A stretch of 64,000 nt of DNA, from NCBI GenBank assembly GCA_950295325.1, contig OX485805.1, forward strand, positions 12,622,501 to 12,686,500, given 5' to 3'. Every line of letters starts with the position of its first letter. Position 1 is the first letter of the stretch. Below are positions 60,023 to 62,488 of the stretch, one piece after another. The position numbers and the translations under genes are program-made. The notes below the pieces were generated by a model. That model was not told the origin of the DNA. It saw nothing but the letters and a program-made list of their open reading frames with translations, and ran no database searches. Origin of the DNA: Polytrichum commune. Lineage: Eukaryota; Streptophyta; Polytrichopsida; Polytrichales; Polytrichaceae.

Positions 60023-60524
60023 TTGTTATAGATGAACTGGTTTAGGTTTGAGAATTAGCCGGTTGCAGTTCAAGACTTTAGGGGAAAACACCCATCGTGT
60101 ATGTATTAGGTAATCGTTTTATTGGAACCGGTTATCGGTGTAGAACCGGTTTTGTCAAGGTGGCGAGCCTGCGGGCGAGCTAGCTTGACAAAACCAGTTC
60201 TGCACCGATAACCGGTTCCAATAAAACGGTTACCGGACGTAACCGGTTGGCCGCTTTGTTGAGCCGCGCAGGTGACCTAAACAGTGGGTCACCTGTCACC
60301 ATAACCGATTTAGATGATCATAACCGGCTGGGATGTCGAGATTATCGTCTGCAAACCTGTGTGCTCAGAGCCAATCGTGTAGTGCCACCTCGGTGAAACA
60401 AAGCGGCCAACCGGTTACGAAGAATCTATGGAATGTATACCTCACATGAGTAAAGAAAAACCGAAAGAGCGAGCACACGATGTAACAAGTTGGACTTGGC
60501 AACGCTAGGACCGATTATGCCTAA
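60023..60524 (-). repeat. Family A repeat, copy 6, split by foldback B
   Basis: The left half ATAGATGAACTGGTTTAGG...CACCCATCGT and the right half AGAATCTATGGAATGTATACC...GGCAACGCTAGGACC-GATTATGCC flank element B. The family H element at 60525 then inserts at its right end. Confidence 0.7.
60102..60419 (+). mobile_element. Foldback element B, long-stem copy
   Basis: A stem of 51 bp per arm (60109-60159 with 60184-60234, 48 of 51 pairing) with a 24-base loop precedes the same 23-bp-bounded module as at 7417-7668. Relative to this copy, the copy at 7.4 kb lost the inner half of the stem and the loop. The core module differs only by a few transitions. Confidence 0.75.
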
Positions 60525-61405
60525 GGGCCACTTCACACACGAGCCGAGAGCCGTGACCAGGAAATTGTGAGAGCCCAAAAGAAAGTGTCCAAAGGCCGTC
60601 CCAACACACCTCCACGAGCATGTAGTGTGGTCACAGATCCTCAAGTGTAGTGTGAAGTCATATGTATTGGGCCCTCAACCAAATGCTACTTCAATGAAAT
60701 CCTATTCACGCAAATCGTCACACATGATAGAATAGAATAAATCAACAATTGTGAGCGTTCGGAGTGCCACGGTCTCCCGGTTTTGTGTTCAGCCTACCCT
60801 CCAATAGGTGGTTTTCGAAAACAGTCCAAGTGACCATGATCCGTTCGATGCCATGTAGGAATCCATGTACCAAATGCTACTTCAATGAAACCCTACTCAC
60901 GCAAATCCTCACACATGATAGATTAGAATAAATCAACAATTATAAGCGTTCGGAGTGCCACGGTCTCCCGGTTTTGTGTTCAGCCTACCCTCCAAGAGGT
61001 GGTTTTCAAAAACAGTCCAAGTGACCATGATCCGTTCGATGCCATGTAGGAATCCATGTACCAAATGCTACTTCAATGAAACCCTATTCACGCAAATCAT
61101 CTCACATGATAGAATAGAATAAATCAACAATTATAAGCGTTCGGAGTGCCACGGTCTCCCGGTTTTGTGTTCAGCCTACCCTCCAAGAAGTGGTTTTCGA
61201 AAACAGTCCAAGTGACCATGATCCGTTCGATGCCATGTAGGAATCCATGTAGACCTCACATCCATCTTGCATTCACATACTCCATTGGTCCCTCAGGGCG
61301 GAGTGTGAAGCAGTGAACTTGGACCGGCTCCGCCTTCTCCACCAATGAGAGTGCTTGAAGTGTAATAATGGTCACGGACTCTCAGTCTCGTGTGTGAAGT
61401 GGCCC
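60525..61405 (+). mobile_element. PIF/Harbinger MITE family H, expanded copy
   Basis: The ends GGGCCACTTCACACACGAG and CTCGTGTGTGAAGTGGCCC are exactly inverted and flanked by TAA on both sides (60522-60524 and 61406-61408). The length is 881 bp instead of about 500 because a 191-bp central segment is present three times. Confidence 0.9.
60678..61250 (+). repeat. Triplicated 191-bp segment inside family H
   Basis: ACCAAATGCTACTTCAATGA begins at 60678, 60869 and 61060. Each unit runs through GTTCGGAGTGCCACGGTCTC and GATCCGTTCGATGCCATGTA to AATCCATGT. Units differ by only a few bases. Other family H copies have one unit, so the array formed within this element. Confidence 0.92.
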
Positions 61406-61475
61406 TAAAATCCTTCCTCGACACTGTCCTCGATCATGCACTTGATGAGAAACTACGGTTCTACACGAATGGGGG

Positions 61476-61506: not shown

Positions 61507-61696
61507 AGATGAAGAAGAAGAAAAGAAAAAACATTCGCCACTAATAAGTGATTCCCTATGTGTACGGGCACGTAGATAGCTTGCACTTTACTAGAGCTCC
61601 CCTCGTGGCGAGCCTGCAAGCACATCCTTGTGCTGACTGTGCATCTTCCTTTTTGCAAGTGCTTTGACACAGTGTCCAGAGAGATTCTTGGGCATA

Positions 61697-62359
61697 CAGT
61701 CTACCCTCTATAAATGTTAACCCTCAGGAGTGGATCAAAGTTAACATTTATAGACGTGTTAACAATTAACGATTATAAAATTATTTTTTTGAGCAATATA
61801 CAAATCTTAACATTTATAAATATAAGCAATTGTGAAAAGTCCTTGTGAGAGAATACCATTCATAAAATTGCACACCCAATCAAAACTTTATTCAATATCA
61901 AGTTTACAAATCATGGGTGAAGTATGAATCAATGGTTCTTTGGTGAGATTCATCTACATGCACAACTTGCAAATATTTCTCAATCTGCACCAACAAACCC
62001 ACATACTTGGACACATCACATGAACGTGATTCCATGTACCTTCTAATCGTACCAAAACTAGATTGCAAGTCACTATAAGATGGAATGGGTTCCACCTCAC
62101 ACTCCTCTCCCTGTGCATCGCCCTAACGCATGGTGAGAGAGAGAGGAATGTAACTGGATGTGTCGTTTTTATCATCCATATTATGGTTGTATTTCATTCG
62201 TTAACATTTATAGAGTCAAATTTACAAAGAAGGGAGTACCATTTTGTTAACAGTTAACACGTTTAACATTTATAGTGTGCAATATGTGGGGAGTAGAAGA
62301 AAGTTAACATTTAGAGAGGGTTAACACTTATAGGTGTAACATTTATAGAGGGTGGACTG
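61697..62359 (-). mobile_element. Pogo-like element, 663 bp
   Basis: The ends CAGTCTACCCTCTATAAATG and CATTTATAGAGGGTGGACTG are inverted, with TA on both sides (61695-61696 and 62360-62361). The terminal sequence closely follows the pogo/Emigrant style of plants. TTAACATTTATA-type words recur about eight times near both ends. The minus strand retains the C-terminal part of a transposase. The interrupted family A unit confirms the insertion site. Confidence 0.88.
61904..62140 (-). pseudogene. Pogo-type transposase C-terminal fragment with canonical PIP box
   Basis: The minus-strand frame begins within 62096-62140 with an acidic stretch (DAQGEECEVEPIP). It continues SYSDLQSSFGTIRRYMESR, SCDVSKYVGLLVQIEKYLQ and VVHVDESHQRTIDSYFTHDL to TAA. 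QRTIDSYF (61919-61942) is a full match to the PCNA-interacting peptide pattern Q-x-x-I-x-x-Y-F. In pogo/Tigger transposases an acidic region, a short helical segment and a PIP-type tail close the protein, as here. The DNA-binding and DDE domains are absent. About 63-78 codons remain open, possibly by chance or recent decay. Confidence 0.75.
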
Positions 62360-62488
62360 TAATTGCTCAAGATCTCAGAGCTTCCAAGTCCAATCGGTTC
62401 CCATGTTGTGGTCATTTGGTTTTTCTTCATGCTTTTGACATATATTCTACAGATTTCTTTAAAACTGATGCGTAAATTTCTTGCAGTC

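Follow-up and report, generated by a model that had tools for sequence, protein, structure and literature searches.

A short open reading frame on the minus strand of the DNA analyzed here (a stretch of 64,000 nucleotides from Polytrichum commune, contig OX485805.1, called the window in the following) is the C-terminus of a pogo/Lemi-type transposase. In the reading that we favor, and that we hold to be highly probable, this tail joins a helical hairpin to a PCNA-binding-type motif (PIP box) which selection has kept in the transposase, and the copy in the window is a non-autonomous by-product. In fact, this copy represents one among numerous internal deletions that arose independently.

The initial annotation had described a TA-flanked element with CAGT ends that holds the tail frame on its minus strand, and this description is confirmed at positions 61697-62359 of the window. 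The element ends in CAGT...ACTG, with 30-nt terminal arms that are 90% complementary when the TA is counted in, and its features are as follows.

61697..62359, minus strand: non-autonomous pogo/Lemi-type element of 663 bp, an internal-deletion derivative (inverted-repeat pair, TA flanks, genome-wide copies)
61695..61696: TA target-site duplication, left, as read in the sequence
62360..62361: TA target-site duplication, right, as read in the sequence
62332..62359, minus strand: terminal inverted repeat on the transposase 5' side, by the inverted-repeat pair
61697..61724, minus strand: terminal inverted repeat on the transposase 3' side, by the inverted-repeat pair
62200..62213, minus strand: subterminal repeat CTATAAATGTTAAC on the 5' side, element positions 147-160, bordering most 5' deletion breakpoints on the outside
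61740..61753, minus strand: subterminal repeat CTATAAATGTTAAC on the 3' side, element positions 607-620
62109..62112, minus strand: internal-deletion junction of the window copy, a 4-bp overlap between its 5' and 3' parts
61904..62122, minus strand: transposase C-terminal tail, an open frame of 72 codons plus stop, with in-frame continuation into the DDE domain in two other copies (L003, L007)
62123..62125, minus strand: in-frame TAG immediately preceding the open frame
61946..62077, minus strand: predicted two-helix hairpin, tail residues 16-59 (AF2 model; similar arrangement in family E1)
61919..61942, minus strand: PIP box QRTIDSYF, tail residues 61-68

The frame had been given as 61904-62140; it is indeed open up to 62122, whereas 62140 lies beyond the in-frame TAG, which interrupts the longer range, so that the open frame begins at 62122. 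Its last residues, written at three different lengths of the same end, are QRTIDSYFTHDL, HQRTIDSYFTHDL (followed by the stop) and ESHQRTIDSYFTHDL. The sole in-frame ATG encodes Met30, and a start at this codon would give 43 residues lacking the first helix. As the annotation had proposed, the frame ends in a motif of the PCNA-binding type, since QRTIDSYF fits exactly the consensus Q-x-x-[ILM]-x-x-[FYW]-[FYW], which was taken with slight widening from a passage of PMC5371812. The subterminal repeat CTATAAATGTTAAC on the 5' side is likely a site to which the transposase binds.

The assignment to a transposase comes from a search with the tail frame in the same genome (408 Mb, 64 contigs), in which 150 of 542 candidates were scored and, the window itself excepted, were 84-97% identical. 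In L003 the tail runs upstream without a stop into a frame of 326 aa with DDE_1 (PF03184) over the cut-off, and in L007 it is joined in frame to a total of 241 aa homologous to the L003 frame; the frame thus falls within the transposase, at its C-terminal end, as the initial annotation supposed. A longer copy of this family (family A), L010, contains in order a partial DNA-binding domain (HTH), an apparent intron, the catalytic part and the tail, in broken frames and with no 5' end found. No intact family A parent appeared among the scored matches. More complete transposases are present in related families. In family E1 (L023) the reading frame is unbroken from Met to stop and encodes HTH_Tnp_Tc5, DDE_1 and QCDIRSFF; in family C (L012) it stays open for 538 aa, with the same two domains and the motif QTSIDAFF. 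Both match PF03184 and PF03221 over the cut-off. The L012 element is TA-flanked, measures 2761 bp and has perfect 20-bp ends (20/20), one base off the right end of family A. An intact parent with family A-like ends was nevertheless not seen, because the L012 transposase has stops at its very N-terminus and none of the family A copies scored is intact. The family B element L011 has TA-flanked ends that match at 17/20 bases, one end being CAAT; by the same rule, terminal ends were not found for L010, L013, L017, L021, L023, L024, and L026. The catalytic D-D spacing is 33 in families A-D, 36 in E and 42 in E1, and for E', F, G, H, and H' it was not returned by the script's rule.

A canonical PIP box ends the transposase in eight of the 11 related families with a readable C-terminus: QRTIDSYF in A and B, QTSIDAFF in C, QTTIDSFF in D, QKDIQSYF in E, QTDIRKFF in E', QCDIRSFF in E1, and QRSLNSYF in F. 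The remaining three have degenerate versions (KSDIKSFM in L041, QMTIHDML in L042, QMTLHDMF in L043). In an alignment of nine tails from the eight families, the Q and the last F of the motif are the only invariant columns out of 138. When the last 100 residues of each of the eight motif-bearing families were shuffled, 0.1-0.3% of the shuffled sequences had a PIP match within their last 40 residues, and in any of the 11 families the rate was at most 0.4%. These low rates, together with the homologous placement in 8/11 families, argue that the match is more than chance.

The families were drawn from two sets of loci. The first comprised 20 catalytic-domain matches with 32-95% identity to the L003 piece, 13 of them carrying the motif in a frame of at least 130 aa and three (L009, L015, L016) in a shorter or broken one; the other four (L013, L018, L019, L027) showed no such C-terminus, their frames being broken where read. 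The second set, 20 loci mostly from an HTH search, gave further E1 copies and the three families with degenerate ends. In 14 HTH-search loci of this set no PIP box was found in the longest frames, whose C-termini may be incomplete, and six of these 14 have a "DGH" catalytic core. This "DGH" pogo-type group, which has long open frames in the same genome, likewise lacks such a tail in the frames that were read. When 11 catalytic cores were placed in a tree, seven motif-bearing families split from four "DGH" rows with a branch support of 100/100; the tree holds the genome's own families only, less E', G, H, H', and L036, whose core was missed by the script's rule. On the strength of this separation, the PIP box appears as a property of one pogo branch that has decayed in parts of that branch. 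What the initial annotation would have counted against its claim is thus seen by half: no such tail shows in the "DGH" frames read, whereas all 11 closer families with a readable C-terminus end in a canonical or degenerate version. From the "DGH" group and the three degenerate families it follows that pogo-type transposition can do without the motif. As the families were picked by likeness to family A or by Pfam models, they do not amount to a census of all transposases.

From the evolutionary perspective, the codons of the motif are more informative than substitution ratios, since synonymous sites are saturated in most comparisons between families and the pattern had to be used instead. In the eight PIP codons, families A and B differ by five synonymous changes and no non-synonymous one, and in the stretch between DDE and PIP by about 59 synonymous and 105 non-synonymous ones. 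Across the eight families, Q is encoded by CAA or CAG and the last F by TTC or TTT, with synonymous variation only; position 4 holds I or L and position 7 Y or F, and positions 2, 3, 5, and 6 are free. The close pairs C-C2 and E1-E1b have no changes in the PIP codons and for this reason carry no information on selection; between E1 and E1b the substitution ratio in the stretch preceding the motif is near 1. With Q and the last F limited to synonymous change amid varying neighbors, the codon pattern indicates purifying selection on the tail within the transposase lineage, and it has the look of a short linear docking motif under selection. The proposal that plant pogo-like transposases kept this tail is sustained by this pattern, along with the presence of the motif in most of the related families.

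The short copies, on the other hand, differ in how much of the tail they retain. When 50 tail-bearing loci were compared with the window element, their 5' breakpoints fell at many values, and 54 distinct deletion junctions were counted among 65 usable loci, with exact junction matches required, junctions within 3 bp merged and L003 omitted. The count started from 75 loci, seven of which could not be placed (L010, L067, L072, L074, L094, L096, L106), and three of the 68 placed loci were dropped for gaps of more than 60 bases (L005, L009, L089); L091, L103, and L104, which have lost the motif, form one merged junction. A looser count (61 pairs, 69 loci, mean overlap 2.55) was replaced, as it held the built-in overlap of L003 and kept sister copies separate. 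Twenty-five of the distinct junctions are direct joins with a mean microhomology of 2.12 against 0.71 expected, and 5/25 show at least four bases against 2% expected; the other 29/54 contain 1 to 42 bases without a match, perhaps filler or old mismatches, and were excluded from the microhomology count. All 65 5' breakpoints lie at element positions 151-248 (the reference ends at 251), immediately internal to the subterminal repeat CTATAAATGTTAAC (147-160), a minimum of 150 being built in for the loci selected by their 5' end and not for those selected by their tail.

A search with the tail protein alone would hide any loss of the motif, because only copies that keep the tail can match. In a tail-independent sample, obtained with the 5' end of the element, 40 of 803 candidates were scored and all 40 were 100% identical over 150 bp. 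In 14 of these, among them the window copy, a tail match reached residue 72, and the remaining 26 were fetched, their 3' parts starting at element positions 248-555. The PIP codons (element positions 418-441) are cut or gone in nine of the 40 copies (L090, L091, L095, L101, L103, L104, L105, L108, L112). Breakpoints throughout the tail and the loss of the motif in these nine copies imply that retention of the tail is passive, as that of a passenger which stays wherever a deletion chances to end short of it; in view of the breakpoint positions, the idea that short elements keep the tail selectively is rejected. Among 48 short copies (L074 and L086 were omitted for indels in the tail) the distinct tail changes are 44 non-synonymous, 19 synonymous and two nonsense, with a per-site ratio of 0.61. 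Purifying selection within the short copies is not claimed, the ratio of 0.57-0.61 coming from 17-19 synonymous changes in copies chosen by protein similarity. As for the window element, its first 150 bp (5' end) are identical in 39 other copies and its 3' end (window 61697-61895) is at best 98% identical to other scored copies, a pattern that would suit separate histories of the two ends.

It could be argued that the fragment in the short elements is itself functional, being translated, titrating PCNA or the parent transposase and selected for doing so. The frame is kept at 84% identity or more, in most cases without stops, in the 150 scored copies (of 542 candidates), and 46/48 ungapped sampled tails have a canonical motif. 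Against this stand the breakpoints that cross the tail, the absence of the motif from almost a quarter of the copies selected by their 5' end (9/40), the in-frame stop that precedes the frame and the position of its first ATG at Met30. Moreover, the per-site ratio reads as near neutral given transition bias and sampling by protein similarity, and the intactness of the short-copy tails is explained by their youth, since the 5' ends are so similar. A functional fragment is therefore very improbable, and the suggestion of the initial annotation that the fragment is kept for itself or could still be expressed finds no support in these data. The window copy kept the tail because it lies about 200 bp from the 3' end, adjoining the ends needed for mobility, and the fragment probably does nothing itself. 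Still less credit can be given to the view that frame and PIP match both arose by chance and have nothing to do with a transposase. Such an origin might be invoked for merely 72 codons in a short element, but it is practically out of the question: it is refuted by the in-frame continuation of L003 into DDE_1, to which add the homologous frame of L007 and the eight families in which the motif occupies the corresponding place.

A more serious objection is that conservation of the QxxIxxYF end serves another partner, or the folding of the transposase, and not PCNA. PIP-like peptides can serve further partners, as is generally known, and three families tolerate the loss of the Q or of the aromatic pair. 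Conservation, however, falls on exactly the four PIP anchor positions and leaves the x positions free. With regard to folding, the AF2 model of the family A tail is a two-helix hairpin (mean pLDDT 77) and that of the E1 tail has a similar arrangement (mean pLDDT 78), but the PIP box follows the hairpin in the lower-confidence end of both. Furthermore, a passage of PMC5371812 gives the fly pogo transposase as a PCNA interactor in a two-hybrid screen. Altogether, a partner other than PCNA, or a folding role, seems unlikely.

Under the favored reading of a hairpin plus a selected PIP box, the PIP box would dock the transposase on PCNA, which is probable and most likely the reason for the selection on it. 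Docking would then place cutting and repair on newly replicated DNA with the sister copy at hand, and the chances that transposition is coupled to replication in this way appear about even. The gap left after excision would be refilled from the sister, and an early stop would produce internally deleted copies such as that of the window; we infer such a gap-repair origin for the deletions. A cloud of independent internal deletions is what sister-copy repair would leave; deletions with microhomology also occur without any PCNA link. If the tail does dock on PCNA, the eight families and the three degenerate ones would constitute a natural variant set, with which it could be tested whether cut-and-paste transposons pick freshly replicated DNA via the clamp.

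Internally deleted non-autonomous transposons are well known from the Ds and KP types, and Negoua and colleagues reportedly dealt with Lemi deletions in 2013. The copies described here resemble all of these in having kept the ends, lost the middle and formed many independent junctions with microhomology; nothing essential sets them apart, the present copies being young and numerous. The transposases share with the Lemi family (Lemi1), as far as the latter is described in the relevant passages of PMC7386202, the TA duplication, the CAGT-type ends and the combination of HTH_Tnp_Tc5 with DDE_1, and the spacings of 33, 36, and 42 lie inside the DD29-42D reported there for Lemi. In the same passages land-plant pogo elements are reported only as one small clade from 23 eudicots (Gao et al., 2020; PMC7386202), whereas eleven divergent families plus the "DGH" group occur here in one genome; a passage of PMC7325037 reports land-plant pogo elements from dicots and Selaginella. 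The Qxxhxxaa motif is shared with the transposase of Drosophila pogo (as described in part of PMC5371812), with the difference that it has been followed here over 11 families of a single genome, with evidence of selection at the level of codons. According to the same source, Tigger and the plant element Lemi1 have also conserved the PIP box of pogo, whose relevance is called unclear there, so that the main point of the initial annotation was already in print, if only in passing (PMC5371812). What is new is the family-wide codon evidence together with the degenerate families, and the host lineage of these pogo families is probably new as well. The genome has few NAC domains, 14 places matching the second part of the NAC model at E of 1e-10 or less with all 28 candidates scored, as would suit a bryophyte or some other non-seed plant. 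Many pogo-type families with long open frames were observed in this one plant genome, and a 397-aa pogo-type form had many copies of the same or nearly the same score among the matches listed. Such pogo richness is unusual in comparison with the published rarity in land plants.

The hairpin recalls the dimerisation domain of CENP-B (PF09026, 1ufi), also a C-terminal two-helix hairpin of a pogo-derived protein. This domain was the only Pfam match of the window tail, at 13.3 bits against a gathering cut-off of 25.4 (E 0.12), and PF09026 matched two of ten tails at E of 10 or less, the best at 0.05. In a Foldseek search of the PDB with the family A model, 1ufi took ranks 1, 3, and 4 (best E 0.33, probability 0.77), and the direct comparison gave Z 5.1 and rmsd 1.9 over 48 aligned residues, a Z within the 4-6 also reached by unrelated helical pairs. 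Pairwise BLASTP of the family A tail with the CENP-B domain had an E of 4e-5, and hhalign a probability of 4.5% with E 0.009. In a shuffle test the values were 0.0005 for A (1 in 2000), 0.02 for D and 0.11 for C, the other eight families not being significant, so that the shuffles favor the resemblance for A and, weakly, for D. Up to E 10, 1ufi was missing from a PDB profile search with ten tails, and it was also absent among the structural matches of the E1 model with E of 10 or less. With the tail below the Pfam cut-off, a Foldseek E above 0.1 and a failed replication with E1, the resemblance of the modeled hairpin is to be taken as a lead. CENP-B is stated in a passage of PMC7386202 to have gained its dimerisation domain. 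That the pogo tail hairpin was instead the ancestor of this domain, CENP-B having inherited the transposase C-terminus and lost only the PCNA-binding end, is doubtful; if it were true, this loss would have cut the link of CENP-B to replication at domestication.

Some further features were observed in the same material. The E1 transposases (L022-L025, L028, L044, L046) end in SSERSLPDLNDTL after the PIP box, and before the hairpin families A, C, and D have FDLNNP in common and B has FDLNNS; both recall, in our view, plant EAR repression motifs. In L020 (1-3435, minus strand) a Ty3-type reverse-transcriptase frame surrounds the family E element, as if the latter had been inserted into a retrotransposon. 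Finally, the window contains a second non-autonomous element at 60525-61405, with perfect inverted ends GGGCCACTTCACACACGAG and CTCGTGTGTGAAGTGGCCC, TAA on both sides (60522-60524 and 61406-61408) and three tandem 191-bp repeats of 96% identity (60678-61251), which we take to resemble PIF/Harbinger (Tourist-like) elements.
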